Assembly (NCBI RefSeq): GCF_014656135.1 | Contig: NZ_BNBV01000029.1 | Coordinates: 1 to 64,000 of the forward strand | Length of the DNA stretch: 64,000 nucleotides | Direction: 5' to 3' | DNA from: Streptomyces thermodiastaticus | GTDB lineage: Bacteria > Actinomycetota > Actinomycetes > Streptomycetales > Streptomycetaceae | Part shown: piece by piece, positions 244-8,222 of the stretch | Layout: each line of letters opens with the position of its first letter | Position numbering within the stretch: the stretch's first letter is position 1 | Position numbers and translations under genes: made by a program | Notes under the pieces: model-generated | Seen by the model: only the letters and a program-made list of their open reading frames with translations | What the model was told of the DNA's origin: nothing | The model's database searches: none

Positions 244-741
244 TCATACAGCATCGCGTGGCGTAAGATAATCAATCATGGCTTCCCTTACGGATTTAGG
301 TGTTGACAGGTCGTTCGGATCATTCAAGCCGAGCAACGGAAGGTCGAGGATGAGACTCGCGATCTTGCGCGAGAACTTCCTTTCGTTCCAGCGGCTAATG
401 GCTTGGAAGGTGCGAGAAAAACCGTAGTATGCTGGGCTTTCTGCGCACATCTCGGGGACTGCCTCGTACGTCCCTGCCGATGTGCGCTGCACTGGCTGCG
501 ACGGCGGAACTACAACCAAAGGTGGCATGCCGTCGTTCCGCAAATTATCGAAAATTTGAGCGACATCGCGGCGTGAAGAGCCGCCGTAACGCTCAAGCGC
601 GAACATTTCCGACATGCAAATGGCATCAGCTCGGATTGCGTACGGTTTTGCGTGCGTGTATTCGATCTCACTACTAGGGTGAATAATGTCTCGCCAGGTG
701 GACAGGGTGGCGTCTCGATAAGACGTGATATACAAGTGCAA
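244..741 (-). CDS. Hypothetical protein, candidate immunity protein for the adjacent Rhs toxin
   Basis: A 165-residue frame begins only nine bases after the stop codon of the Rhs C-terminal toxin gene and on the same strand. This is the standard position of a polymorphic-toxin immunity gene. The start would be TTG (739-741) with a weak AGG upstream; there is no ATG before residue 43. Codon use is much more A/T rich than the core genes, as expected for horizontally moved toxin-immunity cassettes. I do not recognise a family. No signal peptide or membrane segment is visible, so it would act in the cytoplasm. The immunity role is inferred only from position and composition. Confidence 0.5.
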   Translation of the reverse strand: MHLYITSYRDATLSTWRDIIHPSSEIEYTHAKPYAIRADAICMSEMFALERYGGSSRRDVAQIFDNLRNDGMPPLVVVPPSQPVQRTSAGTYEAVPEMCAESPAYYGFSRTFQAISRWNERKFSRKIASLILDLPLLGLNDPNDLSTPKSVREAMIDYLTPRDAV

Positions 742-750
742 TTTATGGAC

Positions 751-1614
751 CTATACTATGGGTGTGTAAGGAAGAATTCGTACGCGGCCAATCTGTGTTA
801 TCTCGTCGTTCGATAGCGCCATGGGCGAGTCTACCTTCCCTCCGGCGTCGGCGAGGTTTGGAATGCGGCTTATGTCCCTGATCACGTCTTCTCGAAAGAC
901 TCCTCTCGTGAGTGTGTAGGGGACTTTGTCTCTGAATTGATGAAATGCCTCACGTGCGCACGCAGCGGCTCCTTCAGGGGTAGTGGAGAAGTATTTCACC
1001 TCTGCCCCGCCTAGATTTCGGTATCTTCGGTTGGCGGGGCCGGGTATGTCCTTGAGTTCATCATCCATCACGACGCGGTAAACGTATATTTCGCCAAGCT
1101 TGAGTTTACTTTCGTCGGCCTCCTCTTCCTCAGGGCAAACGTCTGGGGCCAGGCCCAAGTGATCAGACCAGATTTGTGGGTCGTAGTACTGGCCCGGGAA
1201 GCGTAGCGGTGTGTACGCGGTGCTGTTCGCCGCCCATGCCGTTGTCCCCCACAGGGTGGATCGGGCGCGCCATGCGAGGTGGCCGTGTTCGTCCACCAAC
1301 TCGGTAGGTGTGCCGACCAGGTCGGTGACGATGGCGAAGAAGCGGGAGTCGATCTCCTCTTGTGAGGCGTCGGCGGCGGGCAGGAGGCGTTCGGTCTGGG
1401 ATATGGGGCGTAGGCCTTGGTGGTCCCAGGTGAGGGCCACCGGGTGGGGCAGGTCGGGGGACGTGGTGGTCTGTTCGCACAGAGTGGTGCCGTCCCAGGT
1501 GAAGTCGACACGTTCGACGACTGTTTCGCCGTCCTCGGCCAGGCGGAGTTTGGCGGTGCGGCGGCCCAGCGGGTCGTAGGTGTAGCGCCAGCGGGTGCCG
1601 TCGGGGGTGATCAC
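751..1614 (-). CDS. 5'-truncated Rhs core with an intact variable C-terminal toxin domain
   Basis: The first ~150 residues are RHS/YD-repeat core: motifs such as YTYDPLGRRTAK and the terminal LRFPGQYYDP. In-frame homology (KPDTWRYEWDAEDRLTS) continues upstream to about 1677, so the true start is lost and GTG at 1614 is nominal. The usual stretch between PGQYYDP and DPLGLAP is collapsed, because IWSDHLGLAPD follows directly, suggesting an internal deletion. The last ~120 residues (YVYRVV, KYFSTTPEGA, then an acidic-rich end) are a different module. The YRV, STT and late Glu pattern resembles ADP-ribosyltransferase-like Rhs toxins of the TreTu type, but this is an inference. The base composition is lower in GC than its surroundings. 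It is probably an orphan Rhs-CT cassette rather than a deployable full-length toxin. Confidence 0.6.
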   Translation of the reverse strand: MITPDGTRWRYTYDPLGRRTAKLRLAEDGETVVERVDFTWDGTTLCEQTTTSPDLPHPVALTWDHQGLRPISQTERLLPAADASQEEIDSRFFAIVTDLVGTPTELVDEHGHLAWRARSTLWGTTAWAANSTAYTPLRFPGQYYDPQIWSDHLGLAPDVCPEEEEADESKLKLGEIYVYRVVMDDELKDIPGPANRRYRNLGGAEVKYFSTTPEGAAACAREAFHQFRDKVPYTLTRGVFREDVIRDISRIPNLADAGGKVDSPMALSNDEITQIGRVRILPYTPIV

Positions 1615-1760
1615 TGAGGTGAGGCGGTCCTCGGCGTCCCACTCGTAGCGCCAGGTGTCGGGTTTGCGGGACAGCCAGGGAGGTGGGCAGCTGTGCCGCT
1701 GCGCCCACCGCTTGGACGGCTCGTGCCACGACGAGACTCCACAGGTTCGGTGCAGCGTTG

Positions 1761-2152
1761 GGCAACCATCGCTTCCGTCAGATCGCCAAGAACACCGGAG
1801 CCCCCACCGACCGCCTGTCCGCCCGGCTGAAGAGTCTGGTCGCGGACGGTGTCCTGGAGCGCCGCCCGCTGCCCGATGACCCGCGCCACGACGGCTACTA
1901 CCTCACCGAGGCCGGCCGCGACCTGCTCGGCGTCATCCGTGAACTGCTGCGCTGGGGGGATCGCTGGCTCACCACCTCCCCGCCCATGAAGCTGCGCCAC
2001 CACGACCACGATTTCACCCCCGGGCGGTCTGCGCCCACTGCGGCGAGCCGGTCACCCAAGGCGAGGTGTACGCGGATGTGACCGTGGAGGGCTGGACACT
2101 GAAGGGCCCGGCCGCAGCCCTGCCCGGTGAGGCGGAAAGCGGCCGGGCGTGA
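1761..2152 (+). pseudogene. HxlR-family regulator relic, N-terminally truncated and frameshifted
   Basis: The translated frame GNHRFRQIAKNTGAPTDR continues through RLSARLKSLVADGVLERR and YYLTEAGRDLLGVIRELLRWGDRW, which is the winged-helix core of HxlR/MarR-like regulators. At about 2021-2028 the reading frame changes. In the shifted frame the expected C-terminal tail continues (VCAHCGEPVTQGEVYADV) with the small Cys-x2-Cys knuckle typical of this subfamily, and it stops near 2152. The N-terminal helices before GNHRF are missing and abut the broken Rhs core of the opposite strand. Both truncation and frameshift argue for a dead gene; a sequencing error could explain the shift but not the missing start. 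Confidence 0.65.
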
Positions 2153-2390: not shown

Positions 2391-2585
2391 TCAGGACAGC
2401 TGGTCGAGCAGTCCCCGGCGATGTGCGGCGGCCCAGGTGCCGAGGTGGAGGGGGTCGCGGCCCGGCAGGTCCTCGACTGTGCCGGTGGTGACCGCCGAGT
2501 GGTCGAAGCGGCCCTCGTAGGTCTGGCGCGCCGGGATGAGGGTGCCGGCCGCGCACGCGGCGTTCATGATGAAGACAGGCGGCAT
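2391..2585 (-). pseudogene. Unidentified 3' gene remnant
   Basis: A 64-residue frame from ATG at 2585 has strongly coding-like codons, with third positions almost all G or C. It ends RDPLHLGTWAAAHRRGLLD plus three residues. No ribosome binding site is obvious and the frame stays open upstream into sequence antisense to the STAS gene leader, so this looks like the tail of a once larger gene. I do not recognise the family. It could be a short functional gene, but its position among other relics makes a remnant more likely. Confidence 0.3.
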
Positions 2586-2666
2586 CTGCACCCGGCACAG
2601 GCATCGGCGAGTGTGCAACGCGTCGCTGGGGGCCCGGCACCGTCCGGAACCGAGGAGGGATGGGCC

Positions 2667-3071
2667 ATGCGCTGGACCATCGCCCGTACCGAGCAGATCG
2701 CCGTCAGTTGCGACACGGCCAATGGCTGGACCGTCGTCGAGGTCGACGGCGACGTCGATGTCCACACCCACGCCACGCTCCGCCAGGCGGTCATCGAGCT
2801 GCTCGGCGAAGGACACCGCAACTTCGTCCTCGATCTGTGCTTCGTGCCCTTCCTGGACTCCGTGGGCCTGGGCACCATCGTCGCGATCACCAAACGCATC
2901 AAGGCATGCGAAGGCTCGCTGCGCATCACCTGTCCCTCGGCCCGGATGGCCCGAGTCTTCGAGCACGGCGGCCTGAGCAACGCTTATGAGTTCTACGACT
3001 CGCCCCAGGAGGCCACCGAGCAGGCGCCGCCGGTCGACGGCCTGGCCTACTGGCCCGGGCCCGTCCGCTGA
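2667..3071 (+). CDS. STAS-domain anti-sigma-factor antagonist
   Basis: The 134-residue product is a single STAS domain of the SpoIIAA/RsbV type, which binds an anti-sigma kinase and is controlled by phosphorylation of a serine. The key segment FLDSVGLGTIVAI (about residues 70-82) contains the D-S-x-G-L phosphorylation loop, so the switch residue is present. ATG at 2667 was chosen because GAGGAGGG (2652-2659) sits at ideal spacing; a longer frame back to 2421 has no coding character. The C-terminal ~15 residues are a proline-rich tail outside the fold. No anti-sigma kinase or sigma factor is adjacent, so its partner is unknown. It is the only intact gene among the relics of 1-4000. Confidence 0.85.
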   Translation: MRWTIARTEQIAVSCDTANGWTVVEVDGDVDVHTHATLRQAVIELLGEGHRNFVLDLCFVPFLDSVGLGTIVAITKRIKACEGSLRITCPSARMARVFEHGGLSNAYEFYDSPQEATEQAPPVDGLAYWPGPVR

Positions 3072-3498
3072 ACGGAGATCGCAGCGACGGCGTCCTGATG
3101 CAAACTGTCGAGGCGCCCCGGCGTTCTCCGGGCGACCCCTGCTGCCGAGATGGCCTGCGCGGCATGGGGGCACCGGCCATCGGTGCGGCAAACCTGCGGT
3201 GACTGGTCGCGTTCGGCCGGCAGCCCTCGCTGGAGTCCGGCAGCCGGACCCGTACGGCCGAAGCGCCCGTAGGCCGGTGGTCGGCCGGAGCGCGGGCAAC
3301 GAGGAGACCGGCGAGGTGGTCGGGACCGCGGAGTCAAGATCGGCGCGGCGGTGAGGGCCGGGTACGCGCGAGCCGGCCACCTGATCGTCGGCCGCCCGGT
3401 GCGCCCTGCGGGCCGGGAGCGGCCGGCCCCCTCGCTCTGGCACTCGGAGTGCCGCTGCCGGGGTTCGTGCTGCACCCGTCCCGCACCGGGCCGCCACC
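3072..3498. other. Gene-free stretch
   Basis: No reading frame here has recognisable homology, a convincing ribosome binding site, or the third-position GC pattern of a gene. Overlapping frames on both strands are arginine/proline-rich shadows. It probably consists of decayed sequence between the STAS gene and the SDR relic. Confidence 0.4.
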
Positions 3499-3989
3499 GT
3501 GCTGGCCGTGTCCGCCGTACGTCCGCTGCCGTCCTCCGGGCTGTGTGCGGCGTCCAAGGGTGCTGTGGAGCTGATCAGCGAGGCCTTCGCCCACGAACTG
3601 GCCCCCACGAGAGCCAAGTGACCATCATCGAACCGGGTGTCTTCGCCACCGAGTTCGCCGCCGGCCTCCATGTCGTCGCTCCCGACGTCTACGAGCCGAT
3701 GGTCGGGAAGTTTCTCGCGGACTTCGCCGCCCTGCCACCCGAGGCCTTCGGTGACGCCGAGGCCGTCGCGGACGCGATCACGGCGGTGACGACGATGGAG
3801 AACCCGCCGCTGCGCCTGGCCGTCGGGGCCGACGATGTCGACGGCATCCGGGCCTCACTCTTCGGTGGCGCAGGGCCTGCGGACGTCGTGCGGTGTGAAC
3901 TCGTGCCCGCGAAGGCGCTGTTCGTCTCGGCGATCTCTCGCAGATGCGGCGGAGCGTCTGCGAGGAACCGTCCGCCAGGTACCGCGTAG
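3499..3989 (+). pseudogene. Short-chain dehydrogenase/reductase relic (frameshifted, catalytic Tyr lost)
   Basis: Two frames together read like the C-terminal half of an SDR. The first gives GLCAASKGAVELISEAFAHEL; the second, after a one-base shift near 3600-3606, gives VTIIEPGVFATEFAAG and then DAEAVADAITAVTTMENPPL with the RLAVGADDVDGIRA ending. The catalytic Y-x3-K motif is present as CAASK, with Cys in place of Tyr. The NAD-binding Rossmann half is absent. The last ~45 codons no longer resemble the family. The missing half, frameshift and altered active site all indicate a dead gene. Confidence 0.6.
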
Positions 3990-4002
3990 GCGGTCGTGAG
4001 CA

Positions 4003-4308
4003 TCAGGTGAGGGCCTGCACAGCCCGGCGGGTGGTGGCCAGGGCCTTGGTGAGGCGGTACGCGGGCAGGTGCGTGACCTTGTAAGGGTGAGCGCAGGCAT
4101 TGCGGATCTCTCGGGCCTCGTGGAGGCGCTGCTCGGAGACGCGGGTGAACCGCGCCAGGTACTCGATCGGTCGCGCCGGGTCGGGGCACTGCCGGACGAG
4201 CCAGTCCCACAGGCAGAGCAGCTCGACGATCCGGCACGGGTCGAGTTGCGTGATCCAGCGCGGCGTGGGCATGTCGTCGAGGTCGAGGAAGGCGCGGATG
4301 GTGGTCAT
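4003..4308 (-). CDS. Small HEPN-like protein (R-x4-H motif)
   Basis: The 101-residue protein starts at ATG 4308 with AGGAGG seven bases upstream on the minus strand; a longer frame to 4404 lacks this support. It is predicted to be all helical. Residues 69-74 read RNACAH, matching the R-N-x3-H active-site consensus of HEPN ribonucleases, and are followed by Pro. The same context (R-E-x-R-x3-CAHP with a downstream helix rich in Leu/Ala/Arg) occurs in the N-terminus of the TPR protein starting at 5868, so the two are probably paralogous modules. The gene is divergent from the HTH-transmembrane gene at 4488. An RNase or toxin role is an inference from the motif; no known antitoxin partner is recognised. 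Confidence 0.6.
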   Translation of the reverse strand: MTTIRAFLDLDDMPTPRWITQLDPCRIVELLCLWDWLVRQCPDPARPIEYLARFTRVSEQRLHEAREIRNACAHPYKVTHLPAYRLTKALATTRRAVQALT

Positions 4309-4487
4309 GTCGGCCTCCTGGGCACAGCACGGCCAGACCCCTTGCCAGGGGCCCGGCGGATGTGGGATGGATCCAGGACAGCCGGGGCAGGAACGGGGTG
4401 TCACGCCTGGCGGACGATCCCGTCCAAGCCCGGACGTGCGGCGAAATCCATCGGACAGCTTCGGACAGTCCGGGAAGGGTGGGCTCG

Positions 4488-5711
4488 GTGGGGGATCGGC
4501 ACGAGACGGCGCGTCAGGAGTTCGCGGCCTGGCTGAGAGAGGTGCGCATCCGGGGCGGGCAGCCGTCGCTGCGGCAACTGGAAGGAGAAACGGAGGCCTG
4601 GGGTCACCGCGTCTCCAAGAGCACGATGCAGGAGATGCTCTCGGGCAAGCGGTTCCCCAACATCAACCAAGCCGTCGCGTTCGCCAAGGCCGCCACCCGC
4701 AACGACAAGGAGGTGGTCGATGACACCCGCAAGAAGTGGCACAGCACAGCGCTCGTCCTGAACTCCCCGGCTCCTGCTGTGCCCATCGCCTCCGATCCAG
4801 CACAGGGCACCATCGCTTCCGCAGCCCGGACGCCGCCGTCTGAGCCCGCACCGTCCGACGCCGACGGGCCACAGGGCCGCAACCGTCTGCTGCCCCGTAC
4901 CGTTGTGCTCGCGTCGCTGGCAACCGCCGGTGCCGCGGCCCTGGTCGCGTGGCTCGTGACCGCCGATCCGTTCGGCGGTGACGCCGCATCACCGGCACGC
5001 GCCGGCAGCTCCTCGTCCGCTGGGGCGGTCCCAGCGCAGACCGCCGCCGCAGCAGGTTCCTCGTCCGGTACGTCGGCGGATCCAGGCACGTGGACCGGCC
5101 AGGCCCCCATCGCCGTCCAGGCCTCCTCGGCTTCCTCCATGTGCGCCTCAGCGTGGTTCGACGGGAGCGCGAAGCAGTACCTCGCCCAGCTCCAGCCCGG
5201 AGGAGCGCCCCCGCGGACGGCCGTCCGCCTGAAGCCGTCCATCCAGGTCACCGTTCAGGGCCGCACGCAGCAGAGCGTGCTCCTCACCGGCATGCACATC
5301 AACATCACCGCACGCCACCCCGGGCCGGCCACCGGCATCGTGGTGTCGAGCGGCCAGTGCGGTGGTGGAGTCACCGAGCGCCACTTCGACGTCGACCTCT
5401 CCGCCACCCCGCCCACCCTCACCGCCGAACCCGCCGTCGACGCCTACACGGGCCAAACAACCTCCCCCGCGGTGGACTTCCCTTACAAGATCTCCCTGAC
5501 TGATCCAGAGGTCTTCGAACTCGACGTGACCAGAGACTGCGCCGGCGACTGCACCTTCACCGTGACACTCGACTGGGTGGCCGACGGCAAGAAGGGGACC
5601 AGCGTCCTGGACAACCAAGGCCGGGGCTTCCGAAGCGTCGACCCCGTATCCCGGCCCCACTATCGGCTGCAGCCCGGAGTCAACGGCATGGAGTTGCGGC
5701 AGGGGGGCTGA
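4488..5711 (+). CDS. HTH protein with one transmembrane segment and an extracytoplasmic domain
   Basis: The GTG start at 4488 follows GGAAGGG (4473-4479); the 407-residue product begins MGDRHETARQEFAAW. Residues ~10-65 form a helix-turn-helix of the XRE-like type often found at the N-terminus of Streptomyces membrane or STAND proteins (SLRQLEGET, then SKSTMQEMLSGKRFPN). A Pro/Ala/Ser linker leads to a membrane helix at about 134-157 (VVLASLATAGAAALVAWLV). The remaining ~250 residues are outside the cell, starting with a Ser/Ala/Gly-rich linker and containing paired cysteines (for example DCAGDC) and beta-rich sequence. It would place DNA binding inside and a sensor outside. It lies between the two HEPN-like genes; a shared role is inferred from position only. 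Confidence 0.7.
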   Translation: MGDRHETARQEFAAWLREVRIRGGQPSLRQLEGETEAWGHRVSKSTMQEMLSGKRFPNINQAVAFAKAATRNDKEVVDDTRKKWHSTALVLNSPAPAVPIASDPAQGTIASAARTPPSEPAPSDADGPQGRNRLLPRTVVLASLATAGAAALVAWLVTADPFGGDAASPARAGSSSSAGAVPAQTAAAAGSSSGTSADPGTWTGQAPIAVQASSASSMCASAWFDGSAKQYLAQLQPGGAPPRTAVRLKPSIQVTVQGRTQQSVLLTGMHINITARHPGPATGIVVSSGQCGGGVTERHFDVDLSATPPTLTAEPAVDAYTGQTTSPAVDFPYKISLTDPEVFELDVTRDCAGDCTFTVTLDWVADGKKGTSVLDNQGRGFRSVDPVSRPHYRLQPGVNGMELRQGG

Positions 5712-5867
5712 TGTCGCTCGCCGCGGGTTCCGGGGCCGCCTCGCGTGATCCTTCGGCAGGCAGCGCGTCGGCGAGGTCACGTCGGACACCCCGCGCGCCG
5801 GCGTCGCCCAACCGGCCGCCGCCCTCCGCCACTGTGAACAGCACCGCCCGTTGAGTAGCCTCTCGTT

Positions 5868-8222
5868 GTGGATGCACGACGCAGTGGGCCGCGGGGAGCA
5901 CTGTCGGTCCGCATGTTCCAGGAAGCGGAGCCAGTCGGGTCCGGTGAGGTCATCCGGGCCTGGGGCAGATTGCGGCAACGAGTACCGGAGGGCAGCTCGC
6001 AACTGGCGTACCTGAACCGCCTCACCGGTGTCGGCTTCAGCGACTTGCGCCACCTGAGGGAGGTGCGGACGTGGTGTGCGCATCCGGAAGAACACGGGTA
6101 TCCAGCCCAGGACGAGGTGGACAGGGCCCTGGCCTGTGCGCGAAAGGCCTTGTCACGCCTGCCCACCATCCCCGTCACCGCATCGTCGGGCACCACCGTG
6201 GCGAACGGTGCCTGCCCGGATGCCGCGCGGTGCCCACCGTCCGCGTCCGCGGAACCCCTGTCCACGGCGGGCCGTCCGACGGCCTCCCCAGGGCCGGCAC
6301 ACGTGCGCGATCGGACGGCGGAGCGGCGCCCGACCCCTCTGGAAGCGGCGTACCGGGAAGCGAAGAACGCCTGCGCCGCCGAACCTCCACACGAGGCGGT
6401 AGCAGCCGCGGACCGGTTGCTCTCCATCGCCGAGCGCGAATTCGGTCCCACGCACGTCCGGACCCTGGAGATCCAGTACGAGGTGGCCCAATGGCTGGGC
6501 GATGCCGGTTACTACCAGGAGGCCGTCGACCTGCTGGACGAGATCGTCGCCTGCCGAGTCGACCAGCGCGGAGCCGATCACCCCACCACCCTCGCTGCCG
6601 AGCACCTTCTGGGCTGGTGGAGCGCCCGGTGCGGCCCCTGGACGGAAGCGGCAGAACTGCTGCTCGACGTCGCCGCTCGCAGCGCTCGAGTGCTCGGCCC
6701 GGACCATCCCGATACGCGGCTGTCAGCCAGCGATGTCGCCGAAGTCGCCGAAGACGGTGCGGCACTCGACGCGGAGCCTGGTACGGCGGCCGGATGGTTC
6801 GCACGACAGCGTCGCGCAGCGATCATCGATCTCGCGCATCCCGGCACTCCCGCACAGACTCAAGACCTGCTCGCCCGCTGGCGCATACTCGCGTCGGCGG
6901 CGACACGGGTGCTTGGGAACGCCCACCCGGAAACGCTGGCGGCTCGCATCGAACAGGCCTACGCGACCCACCAAGCGGGGAAGGTGTCAGAAGCCGCCGA
7001 GCTGTACGACCAGCTGTCCGCACACGTCAAGGCGCACCGGACGGCGGACGCCGGACCGCACGACCGTCGCCCGCCGAGCGAACGAGGGATGCCCGACACG
7101 GAACTGGTGTCCGCGCTCGGCACCGTTCTGGACGGGGCACTCGGCCCGGAAGACCCCACCATACTGCTCGTCCTCCTCCTGGCAGCGCACCGAAAGGGTG
7201 AAGACGGCGATGCGGAGGGCGCCCGGCTGCAGCTCGCCGATCTCACCGTCCGCCTTCACGAGGCGTGTGGCCCCGACCATCCCCGCTCGCTGGCCGCCCG
7301 TCGGGAACTGGCCCACTGGACCGGCGAATCCGGTGCGCGCGACGATGCCCATCGCCTCTTCGACGAACTCGCCCGGGACACCGTGCGTGTCCTCGGCCGA
7401 CGCCACCCCACCACCCTGCTGGCGCTCCAGGGGCAAGGGCACTGGGCCGGGGAGTGCGGCCACGCGGAATACGCACGCAGCCGGCTCACAGATCTCGTCC
7501 TGCCGATCGCCGCGGCCTTCGGAGCCGATCATCCGACAGCCATACGTGCCAGGCTCCAGCGCGCCCGCTGGACGGGCGAGAGCGGCGAGGTCGCCGCCGC
7601 CCACCGACAGTTCGAAGAGCTGGCGCCCTGGGCCGTGCGTGCCCTGGGCACCGGCCACCCGATCACCGTGCAGGTCTTGCTCGGCGCAGCGCGCTGGACG
7701 GCTGAGGCGGGCCTGCCGGGCGCGGCCGCGGCCCAGCTACGGGAGGTGCTCGATGTCCTGACACGAGAGTTGGGTGCCGACCACGTGACCACCCTCGACG
7801 CACGCGAGCGCCTGGTGCAGTGGACCGGTGACTCGGGCGACCCCCAGGGGGCGTACGAGCAATGCGAACGCCTGATCCCCGACCTGGAGAGGGTTTTCGG
7901 ACCCGAGCACTGGACAACACTGGTAGCCCGCTACAACAGTGCCCACTGGGCCTGCGCGGCAGGCCGGCACGACCTGGCCGCGCGGATGTTCGCCGCCCTG
8001 GAGGACGCGTTCCACCGAGTGCAGGGGCCACACGGCACCTGGACTCTGAGCGTCCAACACCGCAAGGCCAACTGCGTCGGCGAGGCGGGGGACACCGCGC
8101 AAGCCAACAGGTACTACAGCGAGCTGGTTCCGAAGGCCATGGCCGCTCTGGGCGAGGCCGACCCCACTGCCCGGCTCATCAAGCAGTGGGCGGAACACTG
8201 GCGGAATCGCCACCGGTCATAG
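5868..8222 (+). CDS. HEPN-like N-terminal domain fused to a long TPR array
   Basis: The 784-residue protein starts with GTG at 5868. Residues ~25-95 resemble the small protein at 4003-4308 and contain R-x4-H as RTWCAH (67-72) followed by Pro. A ~50-residue proline-rich linker leads to roughly eleven ~43-residue TPR units (about 150-770). Their hallmarks are G-x-D/E-HP-x-T-L-x-AR and W-x-GE-x-G, the kinesin-light-chain-like TPR type common in Streptomyces. There is no transmembrane segment or NTPase motif, so it is a cytoplasmic scaffold with a possible nuclease head. It follows the HTH-TM gene by 156 bases on the same strand. Function is unknown. Confidence 0.65.
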   Translation: MDARRSGPRGALSVRMFQEAEPVGSGEVIRAWGRLRQRVPEGSSQLAYLNRLTGVGFSDLRHLREVRTWCAHPEEHGYPAQDEVDRALACARKALSRLPTIPVTASSGTTVANGACPDAARCPPSASAEPLSTAGRPTASPGPAHVRDRTAERRPTPLEAAYREAKNACAAEPPHEAVAAADRLLSIAEREFGPTHVRTLEIQYEVAQWLGDAGYYQEAVDLLDEIVACRVDQRGADHPTTLAAEHLLGWWSARCGPWTEAAELLLDVAARSARVLGPDHPDTRLSASDVAEVAEDGAALDAEPGTAAGWFARQRRAAIIDLAHPGTPAQTQDLLARWRILASAATRVLGNAHPETLAARIEQAYATHQAGKVSEAAELYDQLSAHVKAHRTADAGPHDRRPPSERGMPDTELVSALGTVLDGALGPEDPTILLVLLLAAHRKGEDGDAEGARLQLADLTVRLHEACGPDHPRSLAARRELAHWTGESGARDDAHRLFDELARDTVRVLGRRHPTTLLALQGQGHWAGECGHAEYARSRLTDLVLPIAAAFGADHPTAIRARLQRARWTGESGEVAAAHRQFEELAPWAVRALGTGHPITVQVLLGAARWTAEAGLPGAAAAQLREVLDVLTRELGADHVTTLDARERLVQWTGDSGDPQGAYEQCERLIPDLERVFGPEHWTTLVARYNSAHWACAAGRHDLAARMFAALEDAFHRVQGPHGTWTLSVQHRKANCVGEAGDTAQANRYYSELVPKAMAALGEADPTARLIKQWAEHWRNRHRS

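Follow-up and report, generated by a model that had tools for sequence, protein, structure and literature searches.

The systems closest to the locus described here are found in the HEPN superfamily, among the HEPN/MNT toxin-antitoxin pairs, among the ToxR-type transmembrane transcription regulators (TTRs), and among the effector-associated domain (EAD) conflict systems of multicellular bacteria. The locus lies in a stretch of 64,000 nucleotides from Streptomyces thermodiastaticus (contig NZ_BNBV01000029.1, positions 1 to 64,000; hereafter the window). It consists of two divergent genes, one for a small HEPN-like protein (P0001) and one for a regulator (P0003) that combines a helix-turn-helix (HTH) domain, a single transmembrane (TM) helix and an ectodomain, and it is followed by a gene for a HEPN-like domain fused to TPR repeats (P0002). 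In HEPN proteins, an Rx4-6H motif is located at the end of helix 3 or the start of the helix 3-4 loop, and Table 1 of PMC3710099 includes fusions to TPR, Sel1 or TM segments as well as operons with TPR genes. The window domain resembles the Swt1-like, DUF4145 and Abi_2 families (PMC3710099) in its R-x4-H motif ending helix 3 and in the polar residue after the Arg, and differs from them in being shorter (about 85 aa), in an invariant CAHP, and in scoring below every Pfam cut-off. It is also paired with a membrane HTH regulator, an arrangement unlisted in the parts of Table 1 of PMC3710099 examined, and we found no report of such a pairing in the open-licence literature searched.

The HEPN/MNT (HepT/MntA) systems (PMC7641770) are likewise mobile units of two genes, one of them for a small HEPN-like protein, whereas the genes of our locus are divergent and include no nucleotidyltransferase partner. 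The TTRs (PMC10269533) have the arrangement predicted for our regulator, with an HTH, a single TM helix and an outer domain, and they share with it the likely control of a neighbouring gene. In contrast to them, the regulator described here has a fixed HEPN-like partner, a tandem 10-bp array in the divergent promoter and, in one locus, a different ectodomain. The EAD systems (PMC7159879, PMC8195603) have the same kind of small helical domain both alone and fused to repeats, a likeness confined to the window; unlike those systems, the 11 window open reading frames (ORFs) scanned with Pfam include no member of the vWA, MoxR, GTPase or STAND families.

The small HEPN-like gene and the HTH-TM gene form, almost certainly, a conserved mobile unit. 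Standalone copies of the core domain were identified at six distinct loci (the window, L015, L026/L029, L028, L109 and L110), their sources being the window, plasmid p1 of S. longhuiensis, S. triculaminicus JCM 4242, Streptomyces sp. SDr-06, and two genomes from other genera of the family (G805 for L109 and G812 for L110). The set thus spans three genera and one plasmid. In all six loci, an HTH-TM gene is divergent from and adjacent to the HEPN-like gene, with a gap of 165 to about 250 bp. The window was the starting point; HEPN-like queries led to the five other loci, and the HTH-TM protein by itself also led to the plasmid locus (as its best match). Approached from the regulator side, 38 other loci of the HTH-TM family contained no HEPN-like match below E 0.05 (best 0.07). 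This sample comprises 29 of about 75 listed regulator matches, six profile matches and three of 31 plasmid records, with flanks of about 4 kb on each side for most loci and less at contig ends; earlier flanks of 1.5 kb gave the same result. For SDr-06 and S. triculaminicus, the 16 and 20 kb compared contain one shared DNA match (1787 columns, 86%), with both ends 17-18 bp beyond the gene pair; at E 1e-5 there was no other. Since the DNA shared in these stretches is confined to the two genes, the pair moves as a unit. The gene content flanking the pair varies among the loci (by eye).

The wider HTH-TM-ectodomain family is common, being present in 51 of 61 Streptomyces genomes. Among 392 Streptomyces genomes, the HTH-TM profile exceeded 600 bits in two, those of the window and S. 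triculaminicus, both of which are rows of the profile; the next six matches scored 127-217 bits, and none of them had a HEPN-like neighbour. A fragment near the outer domain of the window regulator (225 bits) was observed in G236 (L141:3878-4531, + strand), with no HTH or TM segment in frame. It lies on a 7.6-kb contig, a HEPN-like neighbour is absent in 4.9 kb, and it is a probable relic of the cassette. As this nearest relative is probably a relic, the search turned up no intact close relative lacking the HEPN-like gene; few such cases could have come to light.

The preliminary description of this DNA, made from the sequence by eye, had placed an HTH protein with one membrane helix between the two HEPN-like genes, and our analysis agrees: along the 407 residues of the + strand product, hydropathy peaks once (2.2, residues 139-157). 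Comparison with its relatives places the start of the gene probably at GTG 4488 and not at 4362. Pfam assigns no HTH family to the window regulator, and HTH_31 is found under its cut-off in one relative (E 0.0055). Of its four Cys residues (219, 291, 351 and 355), all but the one at 351 are invariant in four relatives. The L109 regulator matches the profile over its HTH and TM part (E 6.4e-12, with the match stopping near the TM helix), and its outer domain, which has no Pfam match, is different, a difference that fits a replaceable sensor. The AlphaFold2 model of the regulator is poor (predicted local distance difference test, pLDDT, 39.7), which speaks against this view; as the model failed, sensing rests on the topology and on the ectodomain difference. 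The ratio of non-synonymous to synonymous substitution rates (dN/dS) between SDr-06 and S. triculaminicus is 0.46 for the regulator gene and, from only 16 differences, 0.26 for the small gene.

The divergent promoters contain arrays of short half-sites. TTCA recurs at exact 10-bp steps in the promoters of L015 (five copies), L026 (six) and L028 (four), and four copies of GTCCG are found in the window promoter at steps of 10, 21 and 20. Measured from the same gene edge, the GTCCG sites lie at 22/32/53/73 in the window, 20/30/51/71 in L110 and 20/30/51/61/82 in L109, and in all three CGCCGCA precedes the third site. In a first test, restricted to one 5-mer at steps of 10-12, the arrays of L028 and L026 were each reached in 0 of 1000 shuffles; the same stricter test was not significant for the window (493/1000) or L015 (534/1000), which counts against the arrays. 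The second test allowed steps of 10, 20 or 21, a gap rule chosen after the spacing had been seen, and with it the stronger array of each locus, whether 4-mer or 5-mer, was reached in 0 of 2000 dinucleotide shuffles. For the other word length the counts were 7 (window), 12 (L015), 10 (L028) and 0 (L026) of 2000. A 5-mer chain of four is reached by 3 of 710 window tiles, so that on its own the window array carries modest weight. The three-site pattern has its sole exact match in the window's 6.1-Mb genome at this promoter. The bare pattern is not rare, with nine matches in the 13 genomes other than G000, G805 and G812, and the pattern read backwards has five matches in all 16 genomes. Stronger evidence comes from the place and register of the GTCCG array across three genera, G812 and G805 having been found later.

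The HTH domains of these regulators divide into two subgroups, with 36-51% and 53-71% identity within and 20-25% between them, and these are the same two groups as given by the half-sites. Unlike the half-site grouping, the HEPN tree joins L109 with L015 (support 79), and therefore the half-site type goes with the HTH and not with the HEPN tree. Direct binding predicts that half-site type and HTH type go together, and from these sequences the operator type is very probably tied to the HTH type. A scan of positions 3950-6000 for sigma-70 promoters returned no sites.

The preliminary description had also reported an R-x4-H motif common to the 101-aa protein and the N-terminus of the 784-aa TPR protein, and both the ORFs and the motifs, including R-T-W-C-A-H-P close to the N-terminus of P0002, were located as claimed. 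The sharing exceeds the bare motif, as the whole domain aligns: residues 17-100 of the small protein match residues 15-98 of the TPR protein at 30% identity over 84 aa (two-sequence BLASTP comparison, E 3e-10). Seven diverged core members, which are 24-56% identical apart from one 92% pair, have in common W, L, T, R, C-A-H-P, A-L and a final L, and R-x-x-C-A-H-P is invariant in all seven.

Searches with the small protein returned two places below E 0.5 in the 6.1-Mb genome, namely P0001 and P0002, and no match at E 0.001 in 149 other Streptomyces genomes. A domain profile gave a strong match in two of 392 Streptomyces genomes, the window's own included, while five further genomes matched at E 0.006-0.009 and were treated as chance. 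In 326 family genomes, the profile had four matches at E 1e-4 (the own genome, G805, G812 and G972). The plasmid search with a HEPN-like query matched S. longhuiensis plasmid p1. For the species-level collection, a first scan with the small protein first in the alignment confirmed none of 155 pattern stretches, and a second scan confirmed two of 24 stretches, in Streptomyces sp. SDr-06 and in S. triculaminicus, the latter being the same locus as in G257. Weak matches from the genus and class-wide profile searches (5 and 8 genomes, E 3e-4 to 0.01) were viewed as 3-kb loci only. With regard to a phage or viral origin, the domain had no match in the phages or in the viral contigs searched, and PHROGs gave weak matches only, one of them named abortive infection resistance protein (E 0.19). 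G972 departs from the pattern: there, a DUF2846-like part is joined to the domain (R-N-R-I-A-H), with no HTH-TM gene beside it. The fusion of an RNRIAH HEPN-like domain with a DUF2846-like domain (E 0.00057, below cut-off) lies at L111:6326-7033 (- strand), and a 182-aa ORF at L078:1108-1653 (+ strand) has RNECAHP in a helical context (weak match) and may represent a further HEPN-like family.

Such a domain could be a non-catalytic alpha-helical adaptor of the EAD kind, with a structural motif and with standalone and TPR-fused copies that bind each other, a reading that we find rather unlikely. In its favour, adjacent genes with one standalone and one fused copy follow the EAD pattern (PMC7159879, PMC8195603), and repeat-fused relatives occur elsewhere. 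A class-wide search of 394 genomes matched 23, and 13 of these carry the domain at the C-terminal end of Sel1/TPR-like repeat proteins (named from annotated relatives; loci in Table 1), all from one other family, probably that of Nonomuraea, of which one record matches at 67%. The motif His is changed to Arg in 13/13 of these fusions, with the motif Arg kept in 12/13, and this weighs against a catalytic role. The domain can therefore persist without the R-x4-H motif, and its association with repeat proteins in two separate ways, once motif-free, keeps the adaptor alternative alive. Opposed to it are the invariance of the motif among otherwise diverged core members and the single copy of the domain below E 0.05 in each of the five other loci. 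The conserved catalytic-type motif also sets the window apart from EAD systems, as does the kinship of the copies. Adjacent EAD copies tend to be closest relatives (PMC7159879), whereas the TPR-fused domain is 45% and 44% identical to the SDr-06 and S. triculaminicus copies (P0012/P0013) and 29% identical to its neighbour P0001. One further genome from the class-wide search (L067) has a HEPN-like domain with TM helices, and the remainder, besides the own genome, are eight weak matches. At L104, the next gene resembles alanine dehydrogenase (by eye).

We consider it likely that the shared domain is of HEPN ancestry. At the motif, HEPN_Swt1 (PF18731) was matched by three of 12 members (best E 0.032), DUF4145 by two (best E 0.049) and Abi_2 by two (best E 0.31), all below cut-off. 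In hhalign, five core members against ten HEPN_Swt1 sequences scored 30.9 (probability 70), compared with 15.2 for the reversed control and at most 18.6 in 200 column shuffles; masking R and H left a score of 23.6, above the maximum of 19.9 among 200 shuffles. The AlphaFold2 model of the small protein (four-row alignment; pLDDT 87.8; predicted template modelling score, pTM, 0.80) has four main helices (24-39, 47-55, 59-73 and 83-100) with two short helices before them. R69 is near the end of the third main helix and H74 just after it, which is the place given for HEPN proteins by PMC3710099.

Several results weigh against this assignment. No match to a Pfam HEPN family reaches its cut-off, and for HEPN_Swt1 the gathering cut-off of 27.5 bits compares with 14.9 for the small protein and 12.5-12.7 for two relatives. 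Four non-HEPN Pfam families also score, and DUF6548 (function unknown) is the best of all (E 0.0018). With all six motif columns masked, the hhalign score of 18.1 is within the null tail, and with seven members (27.5 against a null of 14.6) the probability is down from 70 to 48. Foldseek gave no significant match to the small-protein model (best E 3.4), and the PDB sequence search returned only unrelated weak matches and no solved relative. AadA (Z 3.6), whose C-terminus we take to be HEPN-like, and 2q00 (Z 4.5) appear only among unrelated helical rows. The latter structure is listed as HEPN in PMC3710099.

The small protein may accordingly be read as an unrelated helical partner of the membrane regulator, either a co-regulator or an inhibitor, and not as HEPN; this draws on the lack of a significant fold match, on a profile signal concentrated in six motif columns, and on other Pfam families that score as weakly or, for DUF6548, better. 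We judge it quite improbable, as three HEPN families align at the same motif, the profile with R and H masked beats all shuffles, and the motif position in the model fits HEPN. The HEPN signature proposed in the preliminary description holds in part: HEPN-like is the best available reading and the model is confident, with four main helices and the motif ending the third, while neither a significant PDB fold match nor a Pfam cut-off was reached. Ribonuclease (RNase) activity of the HEPN-like domain is slightly less likely than not.

The core of the system would be a mobile two-gene cassette. The first gene would encode a membrane-tethered one-component regulator, with the HTH inside, one TM helix and a Cys-containing domain outside, and the divergent second gene a minimal HEPN-like protein. 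Both genes are most likely under the control of the regulator, which would bind the half-sites spaced 10 bp apart in the promoter between them. The replaceable ectodomain would read a cue at the outer face, and this would alter the control and thereby how much of the HEPN-like effector is present. RNases of the HEPN type function as dimers, and the effector most likely acts on RNA in this form, slowing or stopping the cell in a stress or phage response. HepT is likewise dimeric (PMC7641770). In this genome, the TPR-fused copy of the domain probably pairs with the small protein as a scaffold or brake. We infer the topology, binding, sensing, HEPN fold, RNA cleavage and biological role, and the full mechanism, with a mobile cassette whose membrane-tethered regulator controls its HEPN-like effector, falls slightly short of an even chance; a defence role of the cassette seems unlikely. 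It is doubtful that the locus represents a new cassette class, in which a membrane sensor with an exchangeable ectodomain would gate a minimal HEPN RNase via a tandem operator, an outer cue would be linked directly to RNA cleavage, and TPR-fused HEPN copies would be local modulators. The cue in such a class may be envelope damage, phage contact, or a peptide or neighbour signal. If the proposed mechanism is true, a single compact and transferable unit links outside sensing to a HEPN-like effector, with no nucleotide messenger, nucleoside triphosphatase switch or antitoxin enzyme in between. Its steps would be testable by domain exchange between natural variants, namely the ectodomain of L109, the operator varying with HTH type, and the HEPN type independent of both.

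A toxin-antitoxin pair, with the HTH-TM protein as direct antitoxin of a HEPN toxin, would agree with the compact mobile two-gene unit, with its apparent autoregulation and with the known HEPN toxins (PMC7641770). We regard it as very unlikely, given that the genes are divergent and not co-directional, that the partner is membrane-anchored with a large ectodomain, and that there is no MNT-type antitoxin. Membership in HEPN/MNT was rejected, as an adjacent GSX10DXD ORF is present at one of six loci and RX4HXY in one of seven members, the small protein of the window. The ORF in question (L110:7324-8049, - strand) is nucleotidyltransferase-like and lies about 0.5 kb from the HEPN-like gene. The other four regular-expression matches to G[ST]X10DXD (window, L026, L028 and L110) are not nucleotidyltransferase-like by eye.

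The TPR gene lies 156-201 bp downstream of the regulator gene on the same strand. Its repeats (TPR_12, E 7.9e-28) resemble those of the FxSxx-COOH system protein, below the cut-off of that family (FxSxx_TPR, 175 bits vs 300). Two points on this gene count against the proposed mechanism: it is linked to the pair in one genome only, and the PADLOC matches of P0002 fall in its TPR stretch. Among the ORFs in 12-20 kb of each of the five other loci, no relative of the TPR part was found below E 0.1 (best 0.19). The three-gene layout of the preliminary description was thus not supported, and three-gene co-occurrence was rejected, as the TPR gene was found in the window and not at L015, L026/L029, L028, L109 or L110; what remains of it is the small gene with the membrane HTH gene in 6/6 loci. 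We read the TPR gene as a second domain copy captured by a TPR protein, a putative local add-on. Chance proximity, whether of the TPR gene or of all three genes, can hardly be the explanation, even with the TPR gene seen in the window only, given the pair at 6/6 loci with its shared 1.8-kb unit and, for the TPR gene, a shared rare domain whose sole two matches below E 0.5 in the genome are these neighbours.

Table 1. Features of the window locus, its left-hand neighbours, and loci of repeat-fused relatives
Feature	Position	Strand	Remarks
Small HEPN-like gene (P0001)	4003..4308	-	101 aa; R69-x4-H74-P (R69-N-A-C-A-H74-P)
Divergent promoter separating the small HEPN-like gene and the HTH-TM gene	4309..4487		179 bp
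Operator-like array	4411..4466		CGGAC at 4411, 4431, 4452 and 4462 (GTCCG on -); spacing 20/21/10
HTH - single TM helix - ectodomain regulator (P0003)	4488..5711	+	ORF start in the preliminary description, 4362
HEPN-like domain fused to TPR repeats (P0002)	5868..8222	+	784 aa; alternative start ATG 5913
ORF downstream of RHS fragment	244-741		165 aa
RHS fragment	751-1614	-	RHS E 9.4e-9
HxlR-type regulator	1683-2081	+	E 7.8e-15
STAS-domain protein	2421-3071	+	E 1.7e-16
Probable gene relic	3351-3989	+	
Sel1/TPR-like fusion loci			L061-L066, L068-L070, L073, L074, L077, L081

The longest ORFs of the three genes have a coding-like GC pattern, with GC contents of 0.88/0.84/0.80 at third codon positions (GC3) vs 0.56/0.58/0.55 at second positions (GC2). 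To the left of the pair are an HxlR-type regulator and a STAS-domain protein. Farther left, the RHS fragment has an unrelated C-terminal tail and the ORF downstream of it is without a Pfam match, a layout that we take for the remains of a polymorphic RHS effector accompanied by a candidate immunity gene. The ORF adjoining the pair, with no Pfam match at E 0.01, looks by eye like the C-terminal portion of a short-chain dehydrogenase and is a probable gene relic.

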